Origin: a virus
IMG/VR virus record: IMGVR_UViG_3300037189_030188
Coordinates: 1-42,759 of that record
Strand: one strand, 5' to 3'
DNA length: 42,759 nucleotides
This document shows, in pieces, positions 31,434 to 40,051 of this stretch (position 1 is its first letter; each line of letters begins with the position of its first letter). The notes under the pieces were generated by a model. The model saw only the letters and a list, made by a program, of their open reading frames with translations. It had not been told where the DNA came from and ran no database searches. The position numbers were made by a program, and so were the translations under genes.

Positions 31434-32252
31434 ATGAGTAAAAAAATTGGATTTTGTTTTACAGGAGAAGGAGCCAGGGGCTCTATTCAGGCCGGAATTG
31501 CCTTAGGTTTATTTAACCAAGGAATAAAAGCAGACTATACAATAGGAATTTCTTCTGGTTCGATATGTTCTGCTTCTTATGCATATTTAGGGCCTAAGGG
31601 CTTGGCTAATATGTGGAGCAATATTAGAAATATTTTTAGTGTTTTTGGTTTAAACTACAATATTTTGTTTAAAACTGGATTGTTAAATCAAAAACCAATG
31701 GAAAAAATAGTAACTGAGTCGCTTAAAAACGAACCAATATGTGAAAGTACTGTTTGTAGAATGAATATAGAAACAGGGGAAATGCAGTATGTTTCAAATA
31801 AAGCGGCTTCTTTAGAAGAATTCAAAGAAGCAATTCTTGGTAGTGTGGCAATAACAGCACTAGTAGAAGATAGGGATGGTTGGGTAGATGCAGGCAGCAG
31901 ACAATTAGCACCTTTGGAACAATGTATAGAAGCGGGTTGCGATAAAATATATGTAATCATGGGAAGACCCTCTTTTATAGAACCTTGGAAAAAACCAAAG
32001 GGAATTTTAAAGCAATTAAAGATGGGATTTAGGGCTTTAGATATTAGCCTTTTTGAGATAATGTATAGAGATATATTCTCCTGTATCAGAGATGAAAATG
32101 ATCCTAGATTTAAAAACGTAGACATACATCTTGTTGAACCAACAGAACTTTTATTTGAGAGTGTTGATTTTAATAAATGTAAAAATGGCGTTACTTTTGG
32201 AGAAAATAATTTCTTTATCCGGGACAAAAAGGGAATAAGGAAATTATTTTGA
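31434..32252 (+). CDS. Patatin-like phospholipase, 272 aa
   Basis: Patatin signatures are all present: oxyanion loop TGEGARGSIQAG (residues 10-21), nucleophile elbow G38-I-S40-S-G42 and the catalytic Asp motif VDAGSRQLAP (D152). The Ser40/Asp152 dyad is intact, so it should be an active acyl hydrolase, probably acting on membrane lipids. Length is typical. There is no signal peptide, so it would act from the cytoplasm. Patatins are known effectors in bacterial anti-phage systems (CBASS) and toxins; a phage copy may act in lysis, membrane takeover or counter-defence. Its stop overlaps the TTG start of the next gene. Confidence 0.85.
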   Translation: MSKKIGFCFTGEGARGSIQAGIALGLFNQGIKADYTIGISSGSICSASYAYLGPKGLANMWSNIRNIFSVFGLNYNILFKTGLLNQKPMEKIVTESLKNEPICESTVCRMNIETGEMQYVSNKAASLEEFKEAILGSVAITALVEDRDGWVDAGSRQLAPLEQCIEAGCDKIYVIMGRPSFIEPWKKPKGILKQLKMGFRALDISLFEIMYRDIFSCIRDENDPRFKNVDIHLVEPTELLFESVDFNKCKNGVTFGENNFFIRDKKGIRKLF

Positions 32253-32602: not shown

Positions 32603-33045
32603 TAAAAGAAACACATTATACATGGGAAGATTTCAATAAAGATATTTTAATGTTGTGCTCCAAAATAGCTCTTTTTGGTTGGTTTCCAGATTATATTGTG
32701 GGAATAAAAAAGGGCGGATTGGTACCAGCAGTAAAATTAAGTAATATATTAAATAAACCATTGCTGATTGTATCTTGTCAGCTAAGAGATAGTTACGGAA
32801 TTGACTTTGAAGGATTTGATGAAAAAATCTCAAAAAATAAAAAATTCCTCGTAGTCGATGATATCTGTGATAGCGGAGAAACTTTTGAAAAAGTTTCTCA
32901 AGAATTAAATATAAGAGATTATAAGAATATAAGATTTTGTTCTTTATATCACAATATAAGACAAAATTTTTTAACAGACTATTACGCCAGAAAAATAGAT
33001 AGAGAAAAAGATGATAGATGGATCGTTTATCCTTGGGAAATTTAG
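32599..33045 (+). CDS. Phosphoribosyltransferase, 148 aa
   Basis: The 13-residue PRPP-binding signature is clear at residues 83-96: KFLVVDDICDSGETF. Upstream, DYIVGIKKGGLVPAVKLSNIL (about 31-51) matches the usual first loop with its Gly-Gly. The family covers hypoxanthine, xanthine, uracil and related transferases, which salvage bases using PRPP. The start at ATG 32599 overlaps the previous stop (ATGA). The C-terminus converges on the trypsin-like gene with a 4-base overlap. Confidence 0.85.
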   Translation: MIKETHYTWEDFNKDILMLCSKIALFGWFPDYIVGIKKGGLVPAVKLSNILNKPLLIVSCQLRDSYGIDFEGFDEKISKNKKFLVVDDICDSGETFEKVSQELNIRDYKNIRFCSLYHNIRQNFLTDYYARKIDREKDDRWIVYPWEI

Positions 33046-33794
33046 TCTTCGTTTTCTTTGATTGTTTCTTCTATCCATTTTTTTTGCTTGCTTACTCTAG
33101 TATGTCCGCTTTTATCCCCATAATTAGAATCAGGATTTTTATCTGATGCTAAAACCATAGAATTGATCCCTGCTAATTTTTTATCAATAAAAAGCCCTCC
33201 ACCACTATCACCATGGGCTATACAATACTCTAGACTAGTTGTATCTTTTTTATTGTTCATAGTACAAAAAATCATACACTCCCCGATTGTGTCCACGATA
33301 TTACTTCCTGCTCTTTTTTCTCCATCATATTTTTTTGCACCTGTTAGCCCAGTTCCAGTACCTCCATAACCTGCTATACTGCAAGTTTTTCCTAATTCAT
33401 CATTTTTATCATATAACTCAGGATAAAAATCTAATTTGATTTCCTCCTCAGAGTAGCAAGCAGCAATATCGTTTTCTTTTTCTTTTTTGGCTTTAAACTC
33501 TGGTTTAACTATTACTTTTTTAATTTTTATTTTTTTGTTTTTTAAGATAATATAAACATTATCACAGTCATTAACAACATGTGCTGCTGTTAAAACCCAT
33601 CTTAGATTTATAACTACGCCAGAGCCCCATCCTTCAGAGCCTTTTTTGTTTGTGCAAACTACACGCACAACACACTCGTGCTTTTGTCCATATTCTATGT
33701 ATTTTTTATCTTCAACATCATGTTTTATTGTTCCACCATTTGCAAAAGAAGCAAAAAAGATTAAGATGGAAGCAATAATAGTTTTTAATCGCAT
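33042..33794 (-). CDS. Secreted trypsin-like serine protease, 250 aa
   Basis: A signal peptide is visible at the start chosen here (MRLKTIIASILIFFASFANG, then GTIKH); a longer TTG start at 33833 would bury it. The chymotrypsin-fold triad is complete: H72 in WVLTAAHVV, D109 in ENDIAA and S197 in AHGDSGGGLF. Cys at 41/47, 139, 173/177 and 191 suggest disulphides, consistent with export. Phages seldom carry exported trypsin-like proteases. It may attack host surface or periplasmic proteins, mature a virion part or act on neighbouring cells. It stands alone on the minus strand between two plus-strand runs. Confidence 0.85.
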   Translation of the reverse strand: MRLKTIIASILIFFASFANGGTIKHDVEDKKYIEYGQKHECVVRVVCTNKKGSEGWGSGVVINLRWVLTAAHVVNDCDNVYIILKNKKIKIKKVIVKPEFKAKKEKENDIAACYSEEEIKLDFYPELYDKNDELGKTCSIAGYGGTGTGLTGAKKYDGEKRAGSNIVDTIGECMIFCTMNNKKDTTSLEYCIAHGDSGGGLFIDKKLAGINSMVLASDKNPDSNYGDKSGHTRVSKQKKWIEETIKENED

Positions 33795-33813
33795 AAAATA
33801 TTTAGTAGAACTG

Positions 33814-33841
33814 TTGACATTTTTGCAAAACAAGATATAAT
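33814..33841 (+). promoter_or_regulatory. Consensus sigma70 promoter
   Basis: TTGACA (33814-33819), 16-base spacer, TATAAT (33836-33841): both hexamers are perfect consensus. It points right, toward the gene at 34016, leaving a leader of about 165 bases. The promoter overlaps the 5' end of the divergent trypsin-like gene region. Perfect hexamers suggest strong early expression by the host polymerase. Confidence 0.75.
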
Positions 33842-34938: not shown

Positions 34939-35544
34939 TCACCAAGGACGACTGCTTTTAAGGCCTAAACTTTTAGCATGCCTTGCCACGTTGCAGGCCC
35001 AGTATCCTGCTTTGGTGCGATCTTTCTTTTCGTGGCATTTGTGTCTTGCTCTAAAACTTTTTGCCCTGGCAGGACTTTGATTTTTTATGCTTAAACCAGA
35101 AGCTTTAGAGTCGCCAAACCTAACCATCTTTACTCTTCCGCTTGGAGTTTTTACATAAACTTTAAATTTCTTTGGCCCACTTGGAGTTCTCATGGGTTTA
35201 TTTAATGGAACTTTTTTACCAGCATGTTCTGCTTCATTGATTCTTCTTTTTAGCAATCTTGGAGCGTCTAAATATACAACTCTACCATTATACACAGCAG
35301 ATTCTCCTATGTCGGTTTCTATTAGTTCTGCATCTTCATCATTTAATTCAATAAGGTCTTTGTTGTAAAGATCTCTTACCTCATTTATTAGGTCAAAATA
35401 AGCTTTGCTGTAAACTCTAAAAACGTTTTCGCAAAGTGATATCTTATTGTCTAAATGATATTTTAGATTTTCACTTATTTTTGAAGAGCCAATTAATCTC
35501 ATAGGTTCTGGATTTTGATTGTTTAAAAATTCTTTAAAATTCAT
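34939..35544 (-). CDS. Probable head-associated protein with basic Cys/His C-terminal domain, 201 aa
   Basis: Starts MNFKEFLNNQNPE, again the shared leader pattern. Residues 130-201 are a compact basic module: KKFKVYVKTPSGRVKMVRFGDS, then ARAKSFRARHKCHEKKDRTKAGYWACNVAR. This module (F-G-D, S-F-R-A-R-H-x-C, YW-x-C) is common in large phages, sometimes attached to head maturation or core proteins. It probably binds DNA or zinc. AAGGAAA precedes the ATG by 4 bases. The leader and module suggest an internal head protein. Confidence 0.55.
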   Translation of the reverse strand: MNFKEFLNNQNPEPMRLIGSSKISENLKYHLDNKISLCENVFRVYSKAYFDLINEVRDLYNKDLIELNDEDAELIETDIGESAVYNGRVVYLDAPRLLKRRINEAEHAGKKVPLNKPMRTPSGPKKFKVYVKTPSGRVKMVRFGDSKASGLSIKNQSPARAKSFRARHKCHEKKDRTKAGYWACNVARHAKSLGLKSSRPW

Positions 35545-35609
35545 TGTTTCCTTAAAAAAAACACTCCTTAAAATTGATAACTATATGTAGCATTAACGGA
35601 GAAATTTTT

Positions 35610-35870
35610 ATGAGCCTTCCTTTTTCAGAAAAGAAAGAAAAAAACTATTCTATTAGAAAATTCTCGGAAAACGTAGATTCCCATGAATTAAAGTGGCATA
35701 AAGACAAAGAAGATAGAATTGTAATTCCACTACAAGAAACAAATTGGCTTTTTCAAAGAGAAAATCAACTACCAGAACCTATAAATAAAGAAATCAAAAT
35801 TAAAGCCAATGAATGGCACAGAGTAATAAAAGGCACGGGCGATTTAGTTATCAAAGTTTTTAAATTATGA
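35610..35870 (+). CDS. Small beta-rich protein, 86 aa, unknown
   Basis: ATG 35610 is chosen because CGGAG precedes it at 6-7 bases. Contains SHELKWHKDKEDRIVIPLQETNWLFQRENQLPEPI and IKANEWHRVIKGTGDLVIKVFKL. The spacing of H, W and E residues and the ending WHRVIKGTGDLVIKV are reminiscent of a small cupin-like barrel, but this is weak. Its stop overlaps the start of the caspase-like gene (ATGA), so the two are coupled. Confidence 0.5.
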   Translation: MSLPFSEKKEKNYSIRKFSENVDSHELKWHKDKEDRIVIPLQETNWLFQRENQLPEPINKEIKIKANEWHRVIKGTGDLVIKVFKL

Positions 35871-36769
35871 GAAAATATGTTTTTATTTGTTTGTTGAACT
35901 TTTTGTATTTAGGATTTTTATTTTATCCATATGAACATTATGGTGTAGAAACTGCTCTTCCATATGACATTGAAAATAACAATGTATCTTTATTGTTTAC
36001 TTTAACAAATGAAGGAGGAAGAATAGAAAATTTAAATTATATGAAAAGCATATTTGAAGATAAATCTTTAGGATTTGTTTATGAATCATTTCATAATAAG
36101 TCTGCTAACTTTATTTATGACAAAATAACCGAAACCTGTAAAGATTTAGATGAAGAAGCGACTTTACTTTTATATTTAAATGGTCATGGAGGGGGTTACA
36201 ATAAAAACTTTGCCATGGATGCTAGCGATCAAAAATTAAAGTTTAGTAAAATATTAAATTCTATAATTAAAGTAAAGCCTATAAAAAGATTAGTAGTCTT
36301 TGTGGATACTTGCCATGCTGAAGGTGCGATCAACGAAGGATTTCAAGGAGGCGGAAGAATACTAAAAAGCAAACCCAAGTTGGCAGAGCTAACAGACAAA
36401 ATAAACTTTCCCGCTATGTTTAAAGAAAATGAAAAAATATATTTTGGCGAAGACACTAAGGCCTATGAAGAATTATTGATAATCGTATCATCTAGTGCGG
36501 ACAAATTAACTACTAGAGGAATTTTTGCTAGGAACATGAAAAAGACTTTTGAAAACATCAAAAAAGACAAAAATGCCTCAGTGTACGATTTTTTAAATTT
36601 ATTTGCACAATTGGATATCCAGTCTGGTCAACAGCCTTATTACAAGATAATTCCAGAAAGCATATTGAACGAACCTTTGTTTAAAAATACACTTGCTCGT
36701 AGCATTCCCATCAAAGACAAAGAAAAATTCAAAAAGAGTTATATTCTATTACCGGAGTTTAAAAATTGA
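35867..36769 (+). CDS. Caspase-like cysteine peptidase (clan CD) with N-terminal membrane/signal segment, 300 aa
   Basis: Clan CD motifs are present: catalytic His107 in LLLYLNGHGGGYN and Cys149 in RLVVFVDTCHAEGAI, each after a hydrophobic strand, then a typical LIIVSSSADKLTTRGIFARNM block near residues 200-225. The N-terminus (KYVFICLLNFLYLGFLFYPY) is a signal or membrane anchor, so the catalytic part may act outside the cytoplasm or at the membrane. Bacterial caspase-like proteases often cut after Arg or Lys and are linked to programmed death and defence. Its stop overlaps the TTG start of the DDAH-like gene, implying a paired function. Confidence 0.8.
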   Translation: MRKYVFICLLNFLYLGFLFYPYEHYGVETALPYDIENNNVSLLFTLTNEGGRIENLNYMKSIFEDKSLGFVYESFHNKSANFIYDKITETCKDLDEEATLLLYLNGHGGGYNKNFAMDASDQKLKFSKILNSIIKVKPIKRLVVFVDTCHAEGAINEGFQGGGRILKSKPKLAELTDKINFPAMFKENEKIYFGEDTKAYEELLIIVSSSADKLTTRGIFARNMKKTFENIKKDKNASVYDFLNLFAQLDIQSGQQPYYKIIPESILNEPLFKNTLARSIPIKDKEKFKKSYILLPEFKN

Positions 36770-37554
36770 AAAGAATTCTTGTTTGTGATCCATCTTTTTA
36801 TCAAATCAATTATGAAATAAATCCTTGGATGAACGTTAAAAAGAAGGCAAATGAAAGTTTAGCATTAAATCAATGGAATAATTTAACTTTAGTCATTCAA
36901 AGTTTGGGCGTTAAACTTTTAAAAATGCCCCCAGTTCAAAAACTTCCCGATATTGTTTTTACAGCTAATGCTGGATTTAGTTTCAAAGAAAAAGTAGTAT
37001 TGTCTAATTTTAAATATGATCAAAGAAGACCAGAAAAAGAATATTATGAAAACTATTTAAATAAAAATAATATTACAACAATTTCTTTGCCAAACAACAT
37101 ACTCTTTGAAGGGGCAGGAGATTGTCTTTTTAATGAAAACTATATTTTCATGGGCTACGGTTTTAGAAGTGAAATTAGTGCTTACAAAGAAAAAATTTGG
37201 GATGAATTTAATCTCGAAAGAATATTCTTAAAACTTATTGATCCTTATTTTTATCATTTAGATACTTGCTTTTGTCCTCTTCAACAAAATCAGATATTAA
37301 TTAACGCAAAAGCTTTTGAAGAAAAAACTATTCAACTATTAAAAGAAAAATTTGAACTAATAGATGTGCCAGAACAAGATGCTAAACAATTTGCCTGCAA
37401 TGCTGTAGTGATAGATAAAAATGTTATCATCCCTTCTGGATGTTTTGAAACTAAAAATAAACTGGAAAGTAAAGGATATAGAGTTTTTGATGTTGATATG
37501 AGTGAATTTATAAAAGCAGGTGGGGCGTGTAAGTGCCTTACTCTTTTGGTATAG
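36766..37554 (+). CDS. DDAH/amidinotransferase-family enzyme (guanidine-modifying), 262 aa
   Basis: Starts with TTG (GGAG 8 bases upstream) in a TTGA overlap with the caspase-like gene. Family motifs: DIVFTANAG (62-70), FEGAGDCLF (114-122; E115, D119), HLDTCFCPL (H164) and the end AGGACKCLTLLV with the nucleophile most likely C257. These match dimethylarginine dimethylaminohydrolases and related arginine dihydrolases of the pentein fold, which act on the guanidine group of arginine or methylarginine. All main active-site residues appear intact. Substrate unknown. Coupling to a caspase-like peptidase is unusual. Confidence 0.8.
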   Translation: MKRILVCDPSFYQINYEINPWMNVKKKANESLALNQWNNLTLVIQSLGVKLLKMPPVQKLPDIVFTANAGFSFKEKVVLSNFKYDQRRPEKEYYENYLNKNNITTISLPNNILFEGAGDCLFNENYIFMGYGFRSEISAYKEKIWDEFNLERIFLKLIDPYFYHLDTCFCPLQQNQILINAKAFEEKTIQLLKEKFELIDVPEQDAKQFACNAVVIDKNVIIPSGCFETKNKLESKGYRVFDVDMSEFIKAGGACKCLTLLV

Positions 37555-38516: not shown

Positions 38517-38660
38517 GTGAATGCGCCCACCCCCTAAAGGGAGTGGGCTTCTAAGACATTATTGTCTAAAGAGTTCATTCCAACTCTTAATATGTTTTTT
38601 GCAGCATTAAGGTCACGGCTTAACTGTAATCCACAAGCAAAACAGTCGTGATTTCGCTCG
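38517..38660 (-). ncRNA. Predicted omega (guide) RNA region of the TnpB element
   Basis: Known TnpB systems make an RNA from the tnpB 3' end through the right end, with the guide taken from the adjacent DNA. By position this RNA would run on the minus strand, end its scaffold at 38517 and carry as guide the flank from 38516 downward (CAAAAGGATGTTTGCT...), which is part of the split gene. The 5' limit given is approximate. Inference from family knowledge; no transcript data. Confidence 0.45.
38525..38548. repeat. Right-end hairpin of the TnpB element
   Basis: GCCCAC...GTGGGC with a CCCCTAAAGGG core, an imperfect palindrome that closely resembles the left-end hairpin (39866-39887). The tnpB stop codon lies within it. 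Confidence 0.8.
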
Positions 38661-39661
38661 CCTAGTTCTTTCTTTACCTTAATTCCACAACCGCTGCATA
38701 TTTGACTTGTATATTCTGGCTTTACTTCCGCTACCACACAACCAGCCTCTTCCGCTTTGTAATGTAGCATATTACGAAAATTAGTCCAGCCACTATCAAG
38801 TATGCTTTTATTTAATCGTCGCCAGTTATCCTTGAGCATGTTTTTTACACTCAACTTCTCAACGCAGATAACCGAATATTTGTTTACTAGACTTCTGCTT
38901 GTCTTGTGCAAGAAGTCTTTTCTTTGATTCTTTACCTTGAGGTGAAGGTTCACAAGTTGCTTTTTTGCTTTGATCTTCTTCTTGTCTTCTCTGGGAAGAT
39001 TCTTTAATTTGCTGTATTTTGATTGAAACTGTTTAAGTTTGTCTTCACATTGTCTTAAGTAGTGAGGATTCTTTATTGTTGAACCATCACTCATGGTGGC
39101 AAAATCTATACAACCTACATCAATGCCGACAGCCTTTGTTTCAATTCTTTCTTGAGGATCTATCTCGCTATCACAAGAGAAAACTACATACCAATCGTTC
39201 GCTTCTCGTTTGATGGTACAAGTCTTTACTTTGCCAATTAGTTCTCTGTGTTTGATTACCTTTACCTCACCAATCTTTGAAAGGTAAAGTTTGTTGCCAT
39301 TGAGTTTAAACCCAGACTGCGGAAAGCAGAAAGAATCGTACCTGTCGTAACTTTTAAATCTTGGATACCCCGCTTTATCCTTGCTTTCTTTTAATCTTCG
39401 GAAGAACCCTTGGAATGCAAGGTCAACCCTAGCGGACACATTCTGGAGGACTTGTGAATGGACGCCCTCTATCTTCCAAGTCTTGATTAGATTGTGGCAG
39501 TCGTAAACACCAAGGCTTTTCTTTTCTTTTTCCCAACTGTTTTTTCTTGTCTCAAGAACCTTGTTATAGGTATGACGGCAAACATCAAGGGTTTGTTGCA
39601 ACCTTTTTAACTTGCCATTTTTGGCATATATCCTATACTTGATGTTGCGGGTGGCCTTCAT
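38534..39661 (-). CDS. tnpB: TnpB RNA-guided nuclease, 375 aa
   Basis: ATG 39661 gives a typical TnpB start (MKATRNIKYRIY); the upstream in-frame extension translates the element's left end and flank and is not part of the gene. RuvC residues are complete: D181 in VGIDVG, E268 in ICVEKLSV and D350 in SRDLNAAKN, with the Cys4 zinc ribbon C322/C325/C340/C343. The nuclease should therefore be active. TnpB is guided by an omega RNA from the element's right end and cuts DNA next to a TAM. The stop codon lies inside the right-end hairpin, so the gene and the RNA region overlap, as in known elements. Confidence 0.93.
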   Translation of the reverse strand: MKATRNIKYRIYAKNGKLKRLQQTLDVCRHTYNKVLETRKNSWEKEKKSLGVYDCHNLIKTWKIEGVHSQVLQNVSARVDLAFQGFFRRLKESKDKAGYPRFKSYDRYDSFCFPQSGFKLNGNKLYLSKIGEVKVIKHRELIGKVKTCTIKREANDWYVVFSCDSEIDPQERIETKAVGIDVGCIDFATMSDGSTIKNPHYLRQCEDKLKQFQSKYSKLKNLPREDKKKIKAKKQLVNLHLKVKNQRKDFLHKTSRSLVNKYSVICVEKLSVKNMLKDNWRRLNKSILDSGWTNFRNMLHYKAEEAGCVVAEVKPEYTSQICSGCGIKVKKELGERNHDCFACGLQLSRDLNAAKNILRVGMNSLDNNVLEAHSL

Positions 39662-39719
39662 ACCCTTTATATAGTAAGATTTATGTAAAATTCTCAAAAA
39701 ATTTTTACTACATAAATAT

Positions 39720-39833
39720 ATGGTTGAATACCACTCAAAAAATCGGCACAAGTTCCTTATCAAATTGCACATCATATTTGTGGTGAAGTACAGAAAAAGA
39801 CTGCTTGTGAACGATTTAGGCGACGACATCAAA
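39720..39833 (+). pseudogene. tnpA: tnpA remnant (IS200-type transposase, N-terminal 38 codons)
   Basis: ATG 39720 begins MVEYHSKNRHKFLIKLHIIF, then VVKYRKRLL, matching the first helix and strand of Y1 IS200/IS605 transposases (H-[IV]-[IVF]-[FW]-x-x-KYR). It then stops matching at about residue 38 and runs into the left-end hairpin. The HUH motif and catalytic Tyr are gone. It diverges from tnpB with 58 bases between start codons, the IS605 arrangement, so an internal deletion removed most of tnpA. Confidence 0.75.
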
Positions 39834-39865
39834 TATAGTGTGTGTGTAATTTTACCGCCATTCAT

Positions 39866-39887
39866 CCCAGCCCCTAAAGGGACTGGG
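39866..39887. repeat. Left-end hairpin of the TnpB element
   Basis: CCCAGCCCC-TAAA-GGGACTGGG imperfect palindrome, like the right-end one. These end hairpins are recognised by TnpA in IS200/IS605 elements. Confidence 0.8.
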
Positions 39888-40051
39888 TTTTCTGGCGGGA
39901 GGAGTATAAAAAACAAGACATGATTGTAATTGCTGCAAAAGTTCCAGCTAGTAGCATACATACAGATGGAAATAGTTTTGCAGAATGGGGCTATAATGGC
40001 TTGGCTCCTCTTAAGGCAACAATTAGTTATAGACCAAAATGAGAGGTAAAA

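Follow-up and report, generated by a model that had tools for sequence, protein, structure and literature searches.

Gene content of the window

The stretch of DNA analysed here (the window, a virus record of 42,759 bases taken at its full length) encodes a caspase-like peptidase which, in the reading that we prefer and regard as fairly probable, belongs to a virus-restricted family, would be exported to cleave proteins of the host envelope, and is encoded beside an independent gene of arginine catabolism. On the same reading, and with the same degree of confidence, the region would be a stretch of cargo genes from a very large myovirus rather than a single module.

The window has the tail genes of a myovirus, including those for a tape measure protein of 1,912 amino acids and for several baseplate wedge proteins, gp25-type among them; no tRNA genes were found in it. 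The cargo region occupies the right part and contains genes for a tRNA nucleotidyltransferase, a patatin-like phospholipase (31434–32252, forward strand), a phosphoribosyltransferase, and an exported trypsin-fold protease (33042–33833, reverse strand), which is the second exported protease of the region, together with an IS605-type TnpB gene (38534–39961, reverse strand) whose N-terminus is apparently extended. Three co-directional forward-strand orfs are also part of it, coding for a small cupin-fold protein of 86 amino acids (35610–35870, with an alternative longer TTG start possible at 35574), the caspase-like peptidase of 300 amino acids (35867–36769), and an ArgZ-type arginine dihydrolase-like enzyme of 262 amino acids (36766–37554). 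The orf coordinates confirm the arrangement described in an earlier note on this DNA, with the first two orfs overlapping by ATGA and the second and third by TTGA. These start/stop overlaps would reflect dense packing of phage genes, and perhaps co-transcription, with no common biochemical pathway.

A caspase-like peptidase with a predicted export signal

The peptidase matches the Pfam family PF00656 (Peptidase_C14) with an E-value of 9e-6 and a score of 26 bits, above the curated cut-off of 21.4, and this family matches 11 of 11 aligned family members at E <= 0.01. Modelled from 11 phage sequences, the structure (pLDDT 73) matches caspases, MALT1, and metacaspases with Foldseek E-values of 1e-8 to 1e-6, MALT1 being the best, and aligns with caspase-7 with a VIA-align Z of 19.2 and an rmsd of 2.9 over 195 residues; among viral models (BFVD) it matches the caspases of giant viruses. 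Loss of active-site residues in homologues was looked for, and the catalytic H107 and C149 are kept, as are H150 and D147 (two residues before the Cys), in all 26 full-length phage copies. The assignment to clan CD with H107 and C149, made earlier from the sequence alone, is thus well supported.

The N-terminus of the window peptidase (codons 1–25, 35867–35941, forward strand) includes a hydrophobic stretch of about residues 2–18, which reads as an export signal or membrane anchor. In nearly all of the other copies the N-terminus looks like a signal peptide, with sites such as AHA|QEKTG and ALA|QDKTG, and one has a lipobox, LGC|QGG. A clear cleavage site is missing in the window, L005, and L177 copies, and the window and L005 proteins may be anchored rather than cleaved. 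The hydrophobic N-terminus is thus real and most relatives have a predicted signal peptidase site, in agreement with the membrane or export targeting that had been suggested. For the closest diverged pairs of peptidase genes dN/dS is 0.035 and 0.043 (about 0.03–0.05), and this strong purifying selection, together with the intact dyad and the predicted export, argues for a working enzyme outside the cytoplasm.

D147 lies within an invariant DTCH, and D-x-C-H is the motif of basic-specific metacaspases; orthocaspases with this motif cleave after basic residues (PMC7935541). Specificity for Arg or Lys, which in metacaspases comes from an acidic S1 pocket, is no more than plausible for the phage peptidase from this motif, because its DTC part is also present in GPI transamidase (C13).

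Distribution of the peptidase family

Alignment-based scans identified the peptidase on 26 IMG/VR contigs, and another scan, run with different patterns, brought no new ones; single-protein scans of viral contigs for the caspase and for ArgZ, unlike the alignment-based scans, gave no matches. The full-length set comprises 26 copies including that of the window, with one additional contig ending inside the gene. These copies fall into 20 clusters at 90% identity, and family members are about 42–51% identical to the window peptidase. No relatives were returned by two profile scans covering GTDB genomes from 84,980 species of bacteria and archaea, the scans depending on conserved peptide patterns that distant cellular relatives could escape, and neither INPHARED nor PLSDB contains a match. 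Within the searches of IMG/VR, GTDB, INPHARED, and PLSDB the family is therefore virus-restricted. Nothing relevant to phage or huge-phage caspases turned up in the papers searched, and the family appears to be undescribed so far, as a virus-restricted form of a known fold; the novelty that the earlier note had raised as a possibility for the whole module apparently holds for this peptidase family, which is kept in other phages.

The largest contig carrying the peptidase is 459 kb. Sixteen of 25 carriers encode a baseplate protein 55–75% identical to that of the window, compared with at most 39% in the comparison phages, and on this basis we assign the typeable carriers to one clade of large myoviruses; gp25 is likewise present in 16/25. 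The closest deposited phage by baseplate protein is LR756511, a 595 kb metagenomic genome (47% identity), in which the peptidase has no match. Peptidase identity was also compared with baseplate identity for signs of vertical inheritance, and gives a trend only (Spearman 0.42, p 0.17).

The trypsin-fold protease of the cargo region is also present in G001, G002, G004, G027, and G028, all of which are carriers of the caspase; a single weak match was seen in the comparison phages and none in INPHARED. This protein has weak PADLOC similarity to the LmuA and RT-protease models. The patatin-like phospholipase is encoded on 15 of 25 caspase contigs and on 0 of 19 comparison contigs, and could be either a clade marker or a partner of the caspase. 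An MscL mechanosensitive channel gene (L005:7905-8363) lies near the caspase in six loci, and an ArdC/IrrE-like antirestriction-type gene (L091:8085-9518) is within a few kb of it in eight.

The ArgZ-like enzyme and the small cupin-fold gene

The product of the third orf had been described as a guanidine-modifying, DDAH-like enzyme with C257 at its active site. The conserved catalytic Cys stands, but the closest relative is ArgZ: among all NCBIfam families ArgZ (NF052232) is the best match, and in PDB searches the ArgZ structures have E-values of 1e-80 to 1e-75, compared with 1e-23 or weaker for DDAH. A DDAH identity was dropped by these scores; the Pfam family DDAH_eukar matches the protein above its cut-off. 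Because the NF052232 score of 243 bits is below the curated cut-off of 450, we refer to the enzyme as ArgZ-like and not as ArgZ. No export signal was seen in the protein, in which N19, N68, H164, and C257 are conserved. A profile scan found the enzyme on 73 phage contigs, and N68, H164, and C257 (as aligned to the Sll1336 structure) are kept in 72 of the 73 proteins, the exception apparently being a fragment of 108 amino acids.

In 14 other phage contigs the ArgZ-like gene is flanked by an aldehyde dehydrogenase gene on one side and a gene for an aminotransferase of lysine/ornithine type on the other, and in most of them a VOC-family gene lies upstream (L129:8015-11988, L164:8000-11991, and 12 similar loci). 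The straightforward reading of these operons, from family functions, is a route from arginine through ornithine and glutamate semialdehyde to glutamate, the aldehyde dehydrogenase and aminotransferase themselves scoring below the NCBIfam equivalog cut-offs. By analogy with its homologues and with these phage operons, the cytoplasmic ArgZ-like enzyme would most likely convert arginine to ornithine, ammonia, and CO2, supplying glutamate or polyamine pools.

The small protein upstream of the peptidase is all-beta with a cupin fold in its model (pLDDT 93), consistent with its earlier description as a beta-rich protein. Its gene has 378 relatives among the matched stretches, and these are usually near a homologue of the phrog_7595-type gene at 34939–35544 (reverse strand in the window), a companion that accompanies it across many phages and is not caspase-specific. 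A role as dedicated partner of the caspase was rejected on these grounds, and the cupin-fold gene would be a separate, widespread phage gene.

Alternative interpretations

The earlier note had coupled the peptidase to the guanidino enzyme, which would alter arginine groups and so protect or change the substrates of an Arg-specific caspase, as a counter-defence or inter-phage weapon; we regard such a module as highly improbable. The genes are overlapping neighbours in the window, three distinct phages (the window, G004, and G027/G028) have them no more than about 1 kb apart, which allows for a looser link, and the peptidase has the D-x-C-H motif common to basic-specific metacaspases. The cupin–caspase–ArgZ order, however, was sought in the other phages and is found in the window alone among the phage contigs searched, with opposite-strand genes separating the caspase from the ArgZ-like gene at L005 and L098/L099. 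At L005/G004 the caspase directly adjoins the cupin gene, and the opposite-strand gene between caspase and argZ is one for an FMN reductase; the order in G027/G028 is caspase, an opposite-strand gene, cupin gene, and argZ; and in G001 the caspase and ArgZ-like gene, encoded on opposite strands, are separated by 12 kb. ArgZ is present on 4 of the 26 caspase contigs, and the 22 without it include contigs of 204, 225, 251, and 323 kb, although many of the caspase records are fragments and absence is uncertain on the short ones; the caspase is absent from 41 of 43 ArgZ contigs searched. ArgZ homologues act on free arginine, and elsewhere the phage gene lies in its own catabolic operon. The peptidase is predicted to be exported and the ArgZ-like protein is not, so that a joint reaction between them is unlikely, and a role in defence gains no support from PADLOC-DB, which has no match for the peptidase, the ArgZ-like enzyme, or the cupin protein. 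For the closeness of the two genes in three phage types, a cargo region common to related phages is the best explanation.

Other interpretations concern the peptidase itself. An envelope-disruption or lysis-aid set, formed with the exported trypsin-like protease, the patatin-like phospholipase, and the nearby MscL, would account for the confinement of the trypsin-like gene to caspase carriers among the records tested (bar the one weak match), for the distribution of the patatin gene, and for the six loci with MscL; we nonetheless consider it unlikely, since the carriers form one clade and co-occurrence may simply mark descent, and the trypsin gene is found in 5/26 carriers with gene order and distance varying widely. 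It is more doubtful still that the peptidase is cytoplasmic or virion-borne—acting in head maturation or delivered with the DNA—with its hydrophobic N-terminus an anchor and no export taking place: the three copies in which no clear cleavage site is seen would fit, but most relatives have textbook signal peptidase I sites, one has the lipobox, and in the loci read the caspase lies outside the structural gene blocks. It is very unlikely that the protein is no endopeptidase but a sorting-type enzyme or transamidase resembling GPI transamidase or C13. GPI transamidase is the best PDB sequence-profile match of the peptidase core (E 0.003) and Pfam C13 weakly matches five of the 11 family members, from which the family would fall between C14 and C13; C14, however, is matched by every member with a far better best E-value, and the modelled fold is nearest to caspases, so that fold and Pfam both favour C14.

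The preferred reading, that of an exported peptidase independent of the arginine gene, has the peptidase gene encoding a caspase-fold cysteine endopeptidase whose family would have been inherited within a single large-phage clade. As read from sequence, the N-terminal signal would carry the enzyme across the host inner membrane, and there it would most likely cut host cell-envelope proteins in infection, for example in receptor change or envelope loosening. It is possible, though we put this forward more tentatively, that the huge-phage clade evolved its own exported caspase-type enzyme without a close cellular counterpart, and that this cuts or rearranges host-envelope proteins in superinfection exclusion, as an aid to lysis, or in removal of periplasmic defences. 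Bacterial caspase-type proteases have been discussed mostly for roles in host cell death or defence; a strongly conserved, exported, virus-restricted family, if correctly described here, would mean that phages themselves employ the caspase fold outside the cytoplasm, and it supplies about 20 distinct sequences.

Relationship to known systems

The peptidase shares the caspase fold, the His–Cys dyad, and the D-x-C-H motif with prokaryotic metacaspases and orthocaspases (PMC3501461, PMC7935541), which in bacteria often have an N-terminal helix, possibly a signal peptide (PMC3501461, PMC7935541). The phage family differs from them in being single-domain and virus-restricted in our searches, with no bacterial relative by profile scans. 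The caspases of giant eukaryotic viruses (such as cedratvirus and Megaviridae; BFVD) are likewise viral caspase-domain proteins of similar fold, but identity is about 10–16%, the viruses and hosts are different, and the phage copies have export signals of bacterial type.

The best full-length match of the ArgZ-like enzyme is ArgZ/AgrE (Sll1336, Alr4995; PDB 6jv0, 6lrf), with Asn, His, and Cys positions kept, although the phage protein consists of the hydrolase domain alone and lacks the ornithine cyclodeaminase part. DDAH belongs to the same guanidino-modifying superfamily, but its structure match is much weaker than that of ArgZ. Phage guanidino enzymes related to the ArgZ-like gene are found as amidinotransferase-annotated genes of Campylobacter phages and as a DDAH-annotated gene of Xanthomonas phage phiXF1, whereas the caspase has a match in no INPHARED record. 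The ArgZ operons suggest that an arginine-to-glutamate route is present in many phages, an under-described form of metabolic takeover.
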